This document shows positions 2,159-14,550 of a stretch of 32,800 nucleotides of DNA, one piece after another. Every line of letters starts with the position of its first letter. Within the stretch, counting starts at the first letter, position 1. A model generated the notes under the pieces. It made no database searches, was not told the origin of the DNA, and worked only from the letters and a program-made list of their open reading frames with translations. A program made the translations under genes and the position numbers. Source of the stretch: Treponema sp. (GTDB lineage: Bacteria > Spirochaetota > Spirochaetia > Treponematales > Treponemataceae); the NCBI GenBank assembly GCA_024695625.1, contig JAILHV010000014.1, positions 1 through 32,800 of the forward strand, read 5' to 3'.

Positions 2159-2211
2159 CAGTTTTCGAAGAAAACTGACGGGTAAAAATTGCAAGGAAGC
2201 AATTTTTACCC
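2159..2211. repeat. Two adjacent perfect hairpins
   Basis: The first has 8-bp arms CAGTTTTC (2159-2166) and GAAAACTG (2170-2177) with a 3-nt loop. The second has 13-bp arms GGGTAAAAATTGC (2180-2192) and GCAATTTTTACCC (2199-2211) with a 6-nt loop. The right arm of the second runs straight into the R1 repeat. No T-run follows, so they are not ordinary intrinsic terminators. Confidence 0.7.
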
Positions 2212-2297
2212 GCTTTCCAGGGTTCCGGGGGGCCCTACCCCCTCCATTGCCTTACGGCAACGGCTCCGCCGCCCTTCCAATCGGGGCTAGGCTTTTT
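2211..2297 (+). repeat. Dispersed repeat R1, copy 1
   Basis: About 90 bp, also found at 9968-10060 (opposite strand) and 12708-12800. Shared blocks are GCTTTCCAGGGTTCCGG, CCTCCATTGCC and CCCTTCCAATCGGGGCTAGG (copy 2 diverges slightly in the first and last). Two small stems are kept in each copy: TTGCC/GGCAA with a variable 4-nt loop, and a second whose pairs change together (here CGGC/GCCG, in the other copies CCCGC/GCGGG and CCGC/GCGG). There is no ORF. Confidence 0.8.
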
Positions 2298-2336
2298 GGT
2301 GTAAAAAAAACTGTCATTCCCGCAAAAAAAAGTGTC

Positions 2337-8631: not shown

Positions 8632-9966
8632 CTAATTGAATATCGGCACAATTAGCTTTTTACCAATAGATAAAACCTTTTTTTCGCTTATTTCGTTAAC
8701 GGAGCAAAGGTCTTCCACCGTGATTCCGTACCTGCGGGAAATTCCCCAAAGGGAATCGCCTTCCTTTACGGTGTACATGACTGCGTCGGTTGCAACGCCC
8801 TGCTTCTTGAGGTTTTCCTCCGTGTCGGCGGGCATGTCTCCGGGCAGCCTTAAAGAGTAAACCTCTCTTGCTGGCGTACAGTTACGGAAAAGTGCCGGGT
8901 TCAGCGTCTTTACCCTGGCCTTGCTAACACCTGTTGCCTTTGAAATTTGGTTAAAGCTGAACATTCCGGCGGTTTTTATGTAGGTGAATTTTTCCGGCTC
9001 AACGTTTTCTATTGCCTTTACTGCTTCTTCGATGCCTGTTGCCCCGTAGTAGTGGGCGTTTTCGATTATGTCGGCTATGGCGAGGAGCTTTGGCACGTAC
9101 AAAATGGACTCTTTTTTAAGGATTTCGTTTTCTGCAAGGTACCAGAAGTCTTTGCCGGGGTTCTTCTTTACGAATTTGCCCATTGCTCCGGCACCGCAGT
9201 TGTAGGCGGCAAGTGCCAGCTCCCAGTCTCCAAAGAAGCGGAAGTTGTATTCCAGTTTGGAAAGGGCTGCGTCGGTGGACTTCCATGGATCTCTCCTTTC
9301 GTCGTACCAGCTGTCTTTTTCCAGGTAGGGTGCCATGGAATTTGCCATGAACTGCCAGATTCCTGTTGCACCTGAGCGGGAAACGGCGTTTGGTATGTAG
9401 TTTGACTCTACTATAGGAAGGTATTGCAGGATAAGGGGCATGTTGCGCTCCTTAAGCTGTTCAAGTATGTAGGGCAGGTAGGGGGCAGCGTTTTCCAGTG
9501 AGCGCACAAGGACCTTCTGGCCGGAAGCGGTAAGGTACTGCCTTAGGAATTTCTGGCTAAGCTCGTGTTCGATTCCGGGAAGCTCAAGTTCCTTACGCCT
9601 TACTCCGTTTTGTATTTCTTCGCCGGACTTCATGGCGGCAACTTCTTCTTCTATAAGGGTTACCTTGTCCTTTTCCTTGCTCTTTTTGTTTTTGGAGGAC
9701 TTTTTCTTCTTCTTTTTTAGCTCTTCCTGAATCTCTTTTTCAAGAAGCTTTTCCTGTTCGCTTGCGTATGTGTCGGAAGCGTCCAAAAGGTTTTCCTGGG
9801 AAATGGCCTTTCCGTCTGGGTCATTTGTGTTTGCGGAGGCAAGTTCCTGGGCAGTCGCGCAGGATGTCATGAAGACCAGGCATGAAAGCGTAAGGAGGAA
9901 AATTTTCCTCGCAAAAGCCGGACGGCATTTTTTTGATGTTGGCAGGGAAAGTTTCCCCGTCTGCAT
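8632..9966 (-). CDS. MltD-like membrane-bound lytic murein transglycosylase with LysM
   Basis: Cleaves the glycan strand of peptidoglycan to give anhydromuramyl products. From the start at 9966 it is 444 residues. A lipoprotein signal ends at Cys36 (LTLSCLVFMTSC). A lysine-rich, probably disordered stretch follows at 83-101. The SLT catalytic domain spans about 150-280: PIVESNY with the catalytic Glu187, SGATGIWQFM, and LALAAYNCGAGAM. One LysM domain is at 397-441 (YTVKEGDSLWGISRRYGITV). The start is uncertain: the frame stays open to an ATG at 10116, 2 nt after the upstream gene's stop, but those extra 50 codons would translate an R1 repeat. The start at 9966 follows the repeat directly and gives a normal lipoprotein signal. 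The Shine-Dalgarno there (TAGG) is weak. Second gene of the envelope operon. Confidence 0.88.
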   Translation of the reverse strand: MQTGKLSLPTSKKCRPAFARKIFLLTLSCLVFMTSCATAQELASANTNDPDGKAISQENLLDASDTYASEQEKLLEKEIQEELKKKKKKSSKNKKSKEKDKVTLIEEEVAAMKSGEEIQNGVRRKELELPGIEHELSQKFLRQYLTASGQKVLVRSLENAAPYLPYILEQLKERNMPLILQYLPIVESNYIPNAVSRSGATGIWQFMANSMAPYLEKDSWYDERRDPWKSTDAALSKLEYNFRFFGDWELALAAYNCGAGAMGKFVKKNPGKDFWYLAENEILKKESILYVPKLLAIADIIENAHYYGATGIEEAVKAIENVEPEKFTYIKTAGMFSFNQISKATGVSKARVKTLNPALFRNCTPAREVYSLRLPGDMPADTEENLKKQGVATDAVMYTVKEGDSLWGISRRYGITVEDLCSVNEISEKKVLSIGKKLIVPIFN

Positions 9967-9967
9967 A

Positions 9968-10060
9968 TTAAGGCCTACCCCCGGCTGGAAGGGCCCGCGC
10001 AAGCGGGTTGCCGACAGGCAATGGAGGGGGTAGGGCCCCCCGGAACCCTGGAAGGCGGGT
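9968..10060 (-). repeat. Dispersed repeat R1, copy 2, between operon genes
   Basis: The reverse complement matches the copies at 2211 and 12708, including the CAGGGTTCCGG block, the TTGCC/GGCAA hairpin and the covarying second stem (here CCCGC/GCGGG). It lies between the stop of the lipoprotein gene and the chosen start of the transglycosylase, inside one operon, so it is transcribed. Confidence 0.8.
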
Positions 10061-10118
10061 TTGCAAAGGCAAGCTGGTCCAGAAAAGAATTTAAAAGAAA
10101 GAAAAGAGAATTTCATAA

Positions 10119-11275: not shown

Positions 11276-11453
11276 CCCCTCCATGGCTTGATAATTAATT
11301 GCAAGGAAGAAAAAGCTTTTTTCATGGGGCAACAAACGAGAATGTTTGCAAAAAAAACACGTGTAAAAGTGGAGTTCTTAGGGAGGAAACAGCAGGCTTC
11401 GGACTCTGAGCGGTTTCCTCCCCTCCAGGCCGGGATCCAAGGGCTCACCCTTG
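11276..11453 (+). repeat. Multi-hairpin repeat R2, copy 1
   Basis: Matches 13106-13328 closely over its first 100 bp: CCATGGCT, then GCAAGGAAGAAAAA, a CAACAAACGAGAATGTTTG block, an A-run, CACGTGTAAAA and GTTCTTAGGG. It then holds a perfect 10-bp hairpin GGGAGGAAAC (11381-11390) / GTTTCCTCCC (11413-11422). A terminal CAAGGG/CCCTTG hairpin (11438-11453) follows. The hairpin sequence in the middle differs from the other copies although its position is kept. No ORF is seen. Confidence 0.78.
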
Positions 11454-11519
11454 AAAAAACTAGTATTTTTCATCTTTTTAGAGTTTACATTTTTTTTAGA
11501 GATTTTTTTAATTTTCCTA

Positions 11520-11774: not shown

Positions 11775-12638
11775 ATGAATTCAATAGACAGCGCAATCGA
11801 CAACATTCTTGAGTCCTACAAAAAGTACGGCGGAATAAACTTGGAGGAGGCCAACGACTTTCCCAACCGCGAAAACGTTGTGAATGTGCTGCGCGACATA
11901 CAGTGCCTCATATTTCCCGGCTTCCGGGTTGCAGAAGACCTTGACTCCCAGAACCTGCGCTTTGTGACCGGCGAACGCGTGAACCGCATAATTTCCATAC
12001 TCACCCGTGAGATAAAAAAGGCCCTGGTCTACGTAATACAGGACGACATGGTAAAAAAGACCCACTGCTTTGCCCTGGCGGAACAGACAAGCCGCGCTTT
12101 GATAGAAGAAATTCCTGAACTCCGCCGCAAGATAGGACTGGACGTGCAGGCTGCCTACGTCGGTGACCCTGCCGCAAAGTCTACGGAGGAGGTAATAGTC
12201 TCCTACCCCTGCCTTGAGGCCATCACAACCTACCGCATAGCCCATTTCCTCTGCAAGGCCGGCGTTCCCGTAATCCCCCGCATCATGAGCGAGCATGCCC
12301 ACGGTAAGACCGGAATAGACATAAACCCGGGGGCTGAAATCGGCGAAAGCTTCTTCATCGACCACGGAACAGGCGTCGTAATAGGCGAAACCTGCGTCAT
12401 AGGCAACAACGTAAAAATCTACCAGGGCGTAACCCTTGGTGCTCTCAGCGTAAAAAAGAACCTGATGGACAAAAAAAGGCATCCTACTATAGAAGACAAC
12501 GTGACAATCTATGCGAACGCCACGATACTGGGCGGCGAAACCGTAATCGGAGCCGGCAGCACAATCGGCGGAAACACCTGGGTTACAAAATCCGTGCCTC
12601 CCAATACCCTCTTTACCCAGAGCGGCAGCGGACGCTGA
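11775..12638 (+). CDS. cysE: Serine O-acetyltransferase
   Basis: Acetylates L-serine with acetyl-CoA to O-acetylserine, the first step of cysteine synthesis, in the cytoplasm. The 287-residue protein has a helical N-terminal half (about 1-165) and a C-terminal left-handed beta-helix of hexapeptide repeats. The active-site region reads [20 protein letters not shown] then [14 protein letters not shown], with the conserved Asp and His of the family. Hexapeptides such as VIGNNV, TIEDNV, ILGGET and VIGAGS follow. The length matches the longer plastid/EpsC-like form rather than the minimal one. The ATG at 11775 is preceded by AAGGGGAAG at 3 nt distance. It is apparently monocistronic: a terminated small-RNA candidate lies upstream and a repeat block downstream; no cysK is in view. 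ATA codons are frequent, as in the pyrophosphatase gene. Confidence 0.93.
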
Positions 12639-12707
12639 ATTTTCTTTCTTTCTCGGAGCCACCGTCCTGTATTACCGTGGCCGGCCACTACGTGCCCGTC
12701 CACCCCA

Positions 12708-12800
12708 TGCAATTTCTACCCGCTTTCCAGGGTTCCGGCATCCGCCTCCATTGCCTGCCGGCAACCGCTGCGCGGCCCTTCCAATCGGGGCTAGGCTTTA
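12708..12800 (+). repeat. Dispersed repeat R1, copy 3
   Basis: About 93 bp with the R1 blocks GCTTTCCAGGGTTCCGG, CCTCCATTGCC/GGCAAC and CCCTTCCAATCGGGGCTAGG. The covarying stem is CCGC/GCGG. The GC-rich run found in copies 1 and 2 after TTCCGG is shorter here. It abuts the R2 block that follows. Confidence 0.8.
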
Positions 12801-13020
12801 TATGCTGTACGCTGCCCCAGAAAAATCCCTCCATGGATTTTTCTGGGGATCGGAGGTTTGCAGGCAAATCTCCGCGCTGCTAAGCCGCCCGTCCATGGGC
12901 TCTATGATTATTGGCAAGGAATAAATAATTTTTTTGTATGTCTTGCAAAGATGCGTTTGTTTGATAACAAAGTCGGGTTCTTAGGCATATCGCGAAACAT
13001 TGAGCGATATGGCCCCTAAG
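12801..13020 (+). repeat. Multi-hairpin repeat R2, tandem unit A
   Basis: Hairpin 1 has perfect 14-bp arms (12815-12828 with 12835-12848) and loop CTCCAT. Hairpin 2 pairs GGAGGTTTGC (12852-12861) with GCAAATCTCC (12864-12873) through one G-T wobble. A shared GCTAAGCCGCC...TCCATGG and ATTGGCAAGGAA block follows. Hairpin 3 is CTTAGGCATATCGC (12980-12993) with GCGATATG and CCTAAG (13004-13020, 3-nt bulge). Unit B repeats this order with different stem sequences. Confidence 0.75.
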
Positions 13021-13328
13021 CCGTGCCTGCCTTAAAAAAAATCCTTCCATGGATTTTTTTAAGGATTGCAGAATCGCTACGCAATTCTGCATGTTGCTAA
13101 GCCGCCATCCATGGCTATGTAATTGTTGGCAAGGAAGAAAAAACTTTTTTCATTGGGCAACAAACGAGAATGTTTGTAAAAAAAAGCACGTGTAAAAAGT
13201 GGGGTTCTTAGGGGCTTTGCCCCTAAGCCGTGCCGGAAAAGGGAGGGGTTTAAGGGGAGGGGAAAACCTCGCTTCGGAGTAGGGGTTTTCCCCTCCCCTT
13301 ATTCTGGGGTCCAAGGGTCCACCCTTGA
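13021..13328 (+). repeat. Multi-hairpin repeat R2, tandem unit B
   Basis: It has the same module order as unit A. Hairpin 1 is CCTTAAAAAAAATCC / GGATTTTTTTAAGG with loop TTCCAT (about 13029-13063). Hairpin 2 is GCAGAAT/ATTCTGC (13068-13090). The CTAAGCCGCC and TTGGCAAGGAA blocks come next. Hairpin 3 is CTTAGGGGC/GCCCCTAAG (13207-13227). Hairpin 4 has perfect 18-bp arms (13251-13268 with 13284-13301). Hairpin 5 is CAAGGGT/ACCCTTG (13312-13327). The part from 13106 on is also shared with 11276-11453. Confidence 0.78.
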
Positions 13329-13381: not shown

Positions 13382-13849
13382 ATGGAAGCATCTTTTCTTA
13401 ATCCCTTCCTCAGCGCATGTGAGGAAGCTTTTGTTACAATGTTCAATATCAGTCCTGAGCACAGGCAGCCATACCTGCTCAACCCAATTGCTCAGCACTC
13501 CTGGGAAATTTCGGGGCTTGTGGCGGTATCAGGCGACGAGACGGGCATAGTTGCCTTCCGCCTGCACAAGATTCTTGCCGCAAAGATGATTCAGCTCTCC
13601 AACATAGAAATTTCCTCTCCCGAAGAGCTTGAGGACATGGAAAAGGGGCTCGTCAGCGAATTTACCAACATCATTACGGGAAACGCAGTGTCTGCAATTA
13701 CGGACAGGGACATATCGGTTTCTGCCCCGGACATACGCTACGGAGAAAACCATGTGATTCCCTGGCCCCGCTCTGCAAAGATTCTTGCCGTTCCCTTCTA
13801 TACAAAGCACGGAACCTTCGAGGTGGACCTTTGCTTTAGGGGCATGTGA
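13382..13849 (+). CDS. CheX-like phosphatase of the CheC/CheX/FliY family
   Basis: Family members dephosphorylate CheY-P and so reset the flagellar motor signal; spirochaetes rely on CheX for this. The 155-residue protein has the characteristic helix EFTNIITGNAVSAI (93-106), with the catalytic pair Glu93 and Asn96 (E-x-x-N) and the following G-N turn. There is a single such helix, as in CheX, rather than the two found in CheC. The gene stands alone, with no cheA, cheW or cheY beside it, so it may be a second, paralogous CheX whose partner is another response regulator. The first ATG is used, because the -10 box lies 7 nt upstream. A 12-bp inverted repeat and the promoter of the rpmG operon follow. 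Confidence 0.82.
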   Translation: MEASFLNPFLSACEEAFVTMFNISPEHRQPYLLNPIAQHSWEISGLVAVSGDETGIVAFRLHKILAAKMIQLSNIEISSPEELEDMEKGLVSEFTNIITGNAVSAITDRDISVSAPDIRYGENHVIPWPRSAKILAVPFYTKHGTFEVDLCFRGM

Positions 13850-14026: not shown

Positions 14027-14099
14027 GCTCTTGTAGCTCAGTCGGTAGAGCACATCGTTGGTAACGATGAGGTCAGCGGTCCGATTCCGCTCGGGAGCT
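14027..14099 (+). tRNA. tRNA-Thr (anticodon GGT)
   Basis: A complete cloverleaf: acceptor GCTCTTG/CGGGAGC (two G-T pairs), D-arm GCTC/GAGC, anticodon stem CATCG/CGATG around the loop TTGGTAA (GGT), T-arm AGCGG/CCGCT. The T-loop is TCCGATT, with C where most tRNAs have T at the second position. The 3' CCA is not encoded. It is the first gene of the operon and is co-transcribed with rpmG. Confidence 0.95.
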
Positions 14100-14127
14100 T
14101 TTCTAAATAATATAAGGAGCTAATAAA

Positions 14128-14304
14128 ATGGCAAGCAAGAAAAAGACGGCCGTGGAAATCATCGCTTTGCAGTGTACAGAATGCAAGCGCAAGAACTATA
14201 CAACATATAAGAACCGTAAGAACATCACCGGCAAGATGGAAAAGAACAAGTATTGCCCCTTCTGCCGCAAGGAAATCCTTCACAAGGAAACAAAGGTAAA
14301 ATAA
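14128..14304 (+). CDS. rpmG: 50S ribosomal protein bL33
   Basis: A 58-residue large-subunit protein near the E site, starting MASKKKTAVEIIALQCTECK. It is the zinc-binding (C+) type: Cys16, Cys19, Cys43 and Cys46 form two C-x-x-C pairs (CTEC and CPFC). The ATG has AAGGAG 8 nt upstream. It lies between tRNA-Thr and tRNA-Trp, the usual place in treponemes. A hairpin CTGCATGA/TCGTGCAG (14317-14337) follows the stop, inside a 144-nt spacer with no other gene. Confidence 0.95.
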   Translation: MASKKKTAVEIIALQCTECKRKNYTTYKNRKNITGKMEKNKYCPFCRKEILHKETKVK

Positions 14305-14448
14305 TTAGGTTTTTGTCTGCATGAATTTTTCGTGCAGCTAAGATAGGCGGTTGTTTACCGGAGTTTGCCTCTGGTTTCGCCGCTGCGGTTTTGCTGGAGT
14401 GTCCGGCCTGCTTGTGCAGTTTGCCTGTCGTTCAGCCTACCGAATCTT

Positions 14449-14521
14449 AGGTCAGTAGCTCAGTTGGTAGAGTCCCGGTCTCCAAAACCGGTTGTCGCGG
14501 GTTCGAGTCCTGCCTGGCCTG
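14449..14521 (+). tRNA. tRNA-Trp (anticodon CCA)
   Basis: Acceptor AGGTCAG/CTGGCCT (one wobble), D-arm GCTC/GAGT, anticodon stem CCGGT/ACCGG around loop CTCCAAA (CCA), T-loop TTCGAGT with stem GCGGG/CCTGC (one wobble), and discriminator G. CCA is not encoded. A tRNA-Trp in front of secE is common in bacteria. Confidence 0.95.
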
Positions 14522-14550
14522 TTTTTTCTATCAAATAGAAGAGGTTGGAA

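Follow-up and report, generated by a model that had tools for sequence, protein, structure and literature searches.

What is conserved when the hairpins of a tandem repeat keep their order but change their sequence? This question is raised by two units, A and B, at positions 12801-13328 of the analysed window, which comprises 32,800 nucleotides of contig C35 of a 3.29-Mb Treponema draft genome (G000). The repeat, named R2, is flanked by a serine acetyltransferase-like gene (11775-12638) and a cheX-like gene (13382-13849), and the region 12801-13328 folds 7 standard deviations more stably than dinucleotide shuffles. An earlier note on this DNA had taken the paired changes as a sign of selection, acting either on folded RNA or on single-stranded DNA in folded form. 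The wider surroundings are an ordinary housekeeping context, with tRNA-Thr and tRNA-Trp (window 14027-14522) upstream of a nusG-ribosomal protein-rpoB cluster.

All linear blocks that had been quoted as common to A and B were located: TCCATGG at 12830, 12892, 13046 and 13108, TTGGCAAGGAA at 12911 and 13126, GGGTTCTTAGG at 12975 and 13202, and CCCCTAAGCCGTGCC at 13013 and 13220. The hairpins of both units indeed follow the same order with differing arms, and their positions had been given exactly or within a few bases. Unit A ends at about 13027 and not at 13020.

R2 is the 3′ portion of a larger modular element of ~690 bp (about 12645-13328), whose parts are given here on the plus strand. The 5′ leader (12645-12711, start approximate) is an M0a-like remnant according to by-eye alignment with M0a of other copies; it starts just past the serine acetyltransferase stop codon (12638), and BLAST query coverage is thin there. 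It is followed by module M1 (12712-12812), a closed multi-branch palindrome identified by a covariance-model match of 105.8 bits and by covariation, in which P1 (CCCG/CGGG) and P2 (AGGG/CCCT) precede three hairpins. In unit A, module M2 begins with hairpin 1 (12815-12848), the arms of which (12815-12828/12835-12848) form a perfect 14-bp stem around the loop CTCCAT (minus strand ATGGAG). Hairpin 2 (GGAGGTTTGC/GCAAATCTCC, 12852-12873, arms 12852-12861/12864-12873) and hairpin 3b (GCCC-GTCCAT-GGGC, 12887-12900, minus-strand loop ATGGAC) come next. The counterparts in unit B are hairpin 1 (CCTTAAAAAAAATCC/GGATTTTTTTAAGG, 13030-13064, arms 13030-13044/13051-13064), with an additional A in its left arm and the loop TTCCAT (minus strand ATGGAA), hairpin 2 (GCAGAATCGC/GCAATTCTGC, 13068-13090, arms 13068-13077/13081-13090) and hairpin 3b (GCC-ATCCAT-GGC, 13104-13115).

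The M3 head of unit A (12975-13027) contains CTTAGG (12980-12985) and CCTAAG (13015-13020) with CATATCGC/GCGATATG nested between them and a GCC remnant, whereas that of unit B (13202-13234) consists of CTTAGGGGC/GCCCCTAAG (arms 13207-13215/13219-13227) and then CCGTGCC. The arms that had been quoted for this third hairpin are present in both units, but unit A does not simply carry the hairpin of B in another sequence: a small nested hairpin substitutes for the left GGC arm and loop of B, so that the right-hand GCC (13012-13014) is left unpaired. The M3 inner hairpin was found in both orientations, being inverted in other copies. The element closes with the long M3 hairpin (13251-13301), which has perfect 18-bp arms, and with the terminal hairpin CCAAGGG-TCCA-CCCTTGA (13306-13328), its 3′ end. 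A proposed third copy (R1, 11277-11457, plus strand) exists, but only as a partial copy with an M2 tail and M3, lacking hairpins 1 and 2. The window holds further M1 copies at 2202-2308 (plus strand), after the M0b palindrome CGGGTAAAAATTGC-AAGGAA-GCAATTTTTACCCG around 2191, and at 9957-10066 (minus strand, covariance model). Where M0b lies beside M1 (e.g. L115:19333-19600 and L099:10036-10203), an X...X′-loop-X arrangement was seen, the middle arm of which is able to pair with either outer copy; one of these pairings competes with the M1 outer stem P1.

The two R2 units are pieces of a larger family of DNA repeats, of which each rumen Treponema genome carries hundreds of copies; its building blocks are interchangeable perfect hairpins that retain their shape while their sequence is swapped. 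The lack of further copies would have spoken against the earlier note, and a BLAST search of R2 against its own genome gave at least 55 matches (40 of 117 candidates scored), while the M1 covariance model found 126 copies in a 0.91-Mb sample of that genome, 29 of them inside mechanically called ORFs. Most stretches of this sample had been chosen for repeats, and the density was therefore taken from 183.6 kb selected by contig number alone, in which 20 copies correspond to about 359 per genome. Across the genus, the M1 model matched in 92 of 118 species and R2 by BLAST in only 3 of 39, indicating that shape outlasts sequence. In the order, M1 was found in 24 of 119 genomes and 8 of 53 genera. 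Named Treponema MAGs also carry a 22-base M1 sequence as an exact match; several of these come from the rumen of sheep, yak and water buffalo, which makes the host a rumen Treponema. In L186-L193 (G018 and G155) many M1 matches span only model positions 9-76, without the outermost pair and the flanks; these are possibly a related yet distinct subfamily.

We also looked for this repeat among described families. No Rfam family matched at gathering score (only tRNAs matched, and weak hits were far below the cut-off), so that a known RNA family was dismissed. A phage or plasmid origin was likewise dropped, as neither collection gave a BLASTN match and an exact-pattern search found nothing in viral contigs. 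The open-access literature on Treponema intergenic repeats, REP or MITE does not describe the family; subscription papers were outside this search.

Strong covariation is usually taken to prove functional RNA. In a sequence-only alignment (A2) of 50 M1 copies of the own genome, 91.6% of the cells were paired compared to 76.3% after shuffling, and slid controls reached 40-58%; in other species, these values were 95.3%, 66.6% and 41-54%. Doubly changed cells numbered 131 versus 43.9 in the own genome, 235 versus 70.5 in other species (covariation score 0.626 versus 0.161) and 77 versus 28.4 in M2; the shuffles do not preserve relatedness and these counts are not event numbers, gene conversion among copies leaving fewer independent changes behind them. 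The M2 outer helix (columns 69-76/102-109) received no covariation support. The argument rests on the slid controls and on the occurrence of CG, GC, AU and UA at one and the same position in different species. Stems are preserved among the copies, and covariation, far above shuffles and slid controls, goes beyond chance in M1 and M2 as expected of a structured RNA.

The earlier note leaned towards an undescribed structured non-coding RNA under ordinary compensatory selection, in line with the strong covariation and the stable folding of the region. The composition of the pairs suggests otherwise. Stem pairs change among all four Watson-Crick states with hardly any wobble (G·T 0.3-0.7%): M1 contains 17 G-T and 11 A-C among 2276 pairs, M1 of other species 3 and 8 among about 900, and the long hairpins 16 and 17, with part of the hairpins counted on both strands. 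The covariance model contributed to part of these alignments, but wobble is equally low in A2, which was aligned by sequence only. In contrast, tRNAs of the same genome showed G-U in 17 of 251 pairs (6.8%; Fisher p about 2e-9 for the difference from the repeats). A tolerance of G-U above A-C on a sense strand was seen neither in M1 nor in the long hairpins nor in other species. In addition, M1 is evenly oriented, the upstream gene being co-directional in 51 cases and opposite in 65, and the single-strand MFE structure of M1 differs from the covariation-supported fold. The low wobble, G·T being no commoner than A·C, and the random orientation argue against a strand-specific RNA fold. Selection on a single RNA strand would tolerate G-U and not A-C, and since this pattern was not observed, the conserved object would be the DNA palindrome. 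Together, the data favour maintenance of the palindromes themselves at the DNA level over conservation of an RNA fold. Of the two forms of selection that had been suggested, the one on folded RNA is thus disfavoured, while the one on folded DNA is compatible with our results, and we regard a compensating RNA as improbable.

How the stems change was visible in a genome about 92% identical to G000 (G073), which was used for orthologous comparison. All 16 testable M1 loci were common to both genomes, indicating that movement is slow. At one locus (L050 versus L165) the flanks are 97.4% identical and an internal block is replaced; the block of G000 shares 93% identity with a paralogue (L100) versus 74% with its orthologue, which, judged from these identities, is a signature expected of ectopic gene conversion. 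At a second locus (L056/L164) the P5 hairpin is CGTTCCG in one genome and GCTACGC in the other, the remaining sequence matching, and at a third (L099/L165) a different subtype occupies the same place. Among orthologous M1 copies, with L099 left out, 7 doubly changed Watson-Crick pairs were counted versus 2 single changes. Small hairpins are also found nested in the loops of other hairpins. A mini-insert (GAAACTTCGTTGC/GCAACGAAGTTTC) recurs in loops of unrelated M1 and M3 hairpins (L065, L070, L093, L127 and L132), as would be expected if hairpin loops served as targets for insertion. The exchange of hairpins and conversion among copies suggest that the paired changes are mostly replacements of one hairpin by another and not stepwise RNA compensation. 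The paired changes on which the earlier note relied are real, but many of them reflect replacement of blocks by family copies rather than base-by-base compensation.

Whole elements also come and go. At one orthologous site, G000 has an M3-type element and G073 an M0-M1 element, whereas G102, with intact flanks, lacks both; in this single empty site, no obvious target duplication was seen by eye. Dispersed, intergenic, non-coding copies with presence and absence at orthologous sites characterise MITE- or BOX-like repeats in the broad sense, and this is the pattern found here. The serine acetyltransferase-cheX gap holds only an M2 tail and M3 with different stems in G132, and a different structured repeat in G102 (L149). 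A second multi-branch repeat family occurs in the own genome (CAAACCCCAAAGGGAGCGAAAGTCCTATTACCGCGC, L147 about 2220-2400), and a similar one is present at the R2 site of G102.

A search for an enzyme mobilising the repeat found none. The Y1 transposase of G000 is encoded by one ordinary IS200-like gene with no M1 within 1.5 kb, and the number of Y1 genes is not associated with repeat copy number across the genus; a Y1/RAYT mobiliser was therefore dropped. Divergence of stems with conserved shape is typical of integron attC sites. An integron integrase well above the NCBIfam cut-off is encoded in G000 (L328, C91, 302-1234) and in G132 (L329, C157), and the repeats could thus be attC-like, folded single-strand recombination sites used by this integrase, with stems free to diverge. 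However, the intergenic copies are dispersed in both orientations without cassette spacing, the copy-rich G073 has no integrase above the cut-off, and the M1 base (CCCG/CGGG) is, by inspection, not an attC core. Instead of a one-orientation cassette array beside intI, only scattered M-type copies were found near it. The integrase gene of G000 lies at a contig end, so that any cassette array would be cut off. With an integrase present and the geometry wrong, the attC explanation was dropped as very improbable.

Copy number, genus-wide spread, conservation of structure, block exchange and presence or absence at an orthologous site are established by these comparisons. The explanation that we favour, with somewhat better than even confidence, is that R2 is part of a dispersed, non-autonomous family of modular Treponema DNA repeats whose hairpins act as DNA and whose paired changes are mostly hairpin replacements. 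The modules would be hairpin-forming palindromes that insert in intergenic DNA, duplicate, nest in each other's loops and exchange whole hairpins with one another. As cruciforms or single strands, they may be recognised by a mobilising or recombination activity, and/or their perfect complementarity may be kept by one arm templating the other, in addition to ectopic gene conversion among copies. Template switching at quasi-palindromes, a well-documented source of mutation, makes their arms more alike (PMC3820800), and such a process would yield the observed lack of intermediates.

A fixed element within these variable hairpins is the loop. Of 444 strand-wise counts of strong hexaloop hairpins, 47 show ANGGAN, well ahead of any other pattern; a C-G pair closes 45 of these loops, in which positions 2 and 6 vary freely. 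This loop is probably the site read by a protein. CANGGANG apical hexaloops are a high-affinity target of CsrA/RsmE (PMC4894983), and the ANGGAN loops match this consensus and have this apical form. The match is a strong lead, though not a test, for candidate CsrA sites. The hairpins could then be CsrA-binding RNA sites, with read-through transcripts whose CANGGANG hexaloops would either titrate CsrA or serve as marks on mRNAs. The same loop sits on unrelated stems in G155, and the spacing between motifs of one strand is mostly 60-75 nt, both of which fit such a role. CsrA is encoded in 110 of 118 genomes of the genus, in agreement with this, but as it is nearly universal, its presence failed as a discriminator. 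On the other hand, hardly any G-U occurs on either strand, M0b and M2 carry the motif on opposite strands (plus and minus, respectively), and no sense bias relative to neighbouring genes was seen for CANGGANG hairpins of tandem gaps (11 sense, 9 antisense; threshold 4). Moreover, G059 has CsrA and no M1 match, and no such hairpins were found in sampled stretches of G059 and G133 (the latter also without M1 match); several M1-bearing species likewise have none. We consider CsrA-binding sites of this kind unlikely. A combined possibility, to which we give similarly limited credence, is that a mobile repeat family has spread through Treponema genomes with hundreds of hairpins showing the CsrA loop on both strands, so that any read-through transcript would bear CsrA decoys, the palindromes being kept as DNA and the loop being selected via a host RNA-binding protein.

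Hundreds of these repeats covary strongly with almost no wobble and no strand preference while hairpins are swapped whole at orthologous loci, which calls for caution in covariation-based RNA discovery. They also offer a natural setting in which to ask how palindromes in DNA remain perfect during sequence turnover. Should the loop prove to be a CsrA site, the repeat family would be tied to a global regulator.

Several known systems share features with this family. CsrB/RsmZ-type sRNAs and the CsrA sites of the flaA leader likewise have ANGGA in C-G-closed apical hexaloops (PMC4894983), whereas the Treponema repeats are dispersed on both strands with almost no G-U pairs and are known here from DNA. 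REP/BIME sequences with RAYT transposases also form hundreds of intergenic palindromes per genome; however, no RAYT lies beside the Treponema repeats, and REP sequence is conserved, while here the stems are free and the loops fixed. Integron attC sites are folded and have sequence-free stems as well, but the Treponema repeats are found outside cassette arrays in random orientation, and no attC core was seen. BOX elements of Streptococcus pneumoniae are composed of boxA-boxB-boxC. Like the Treponema family, they are modular, intergenic, hairpin-forming and non-coding, with a variable number of modules and about a hundred or more copies. In this comparison, which is by description only and spans different phyla, the Treponema modules differ in that they nest, invert and retain the loop although their stems vary in sequence.
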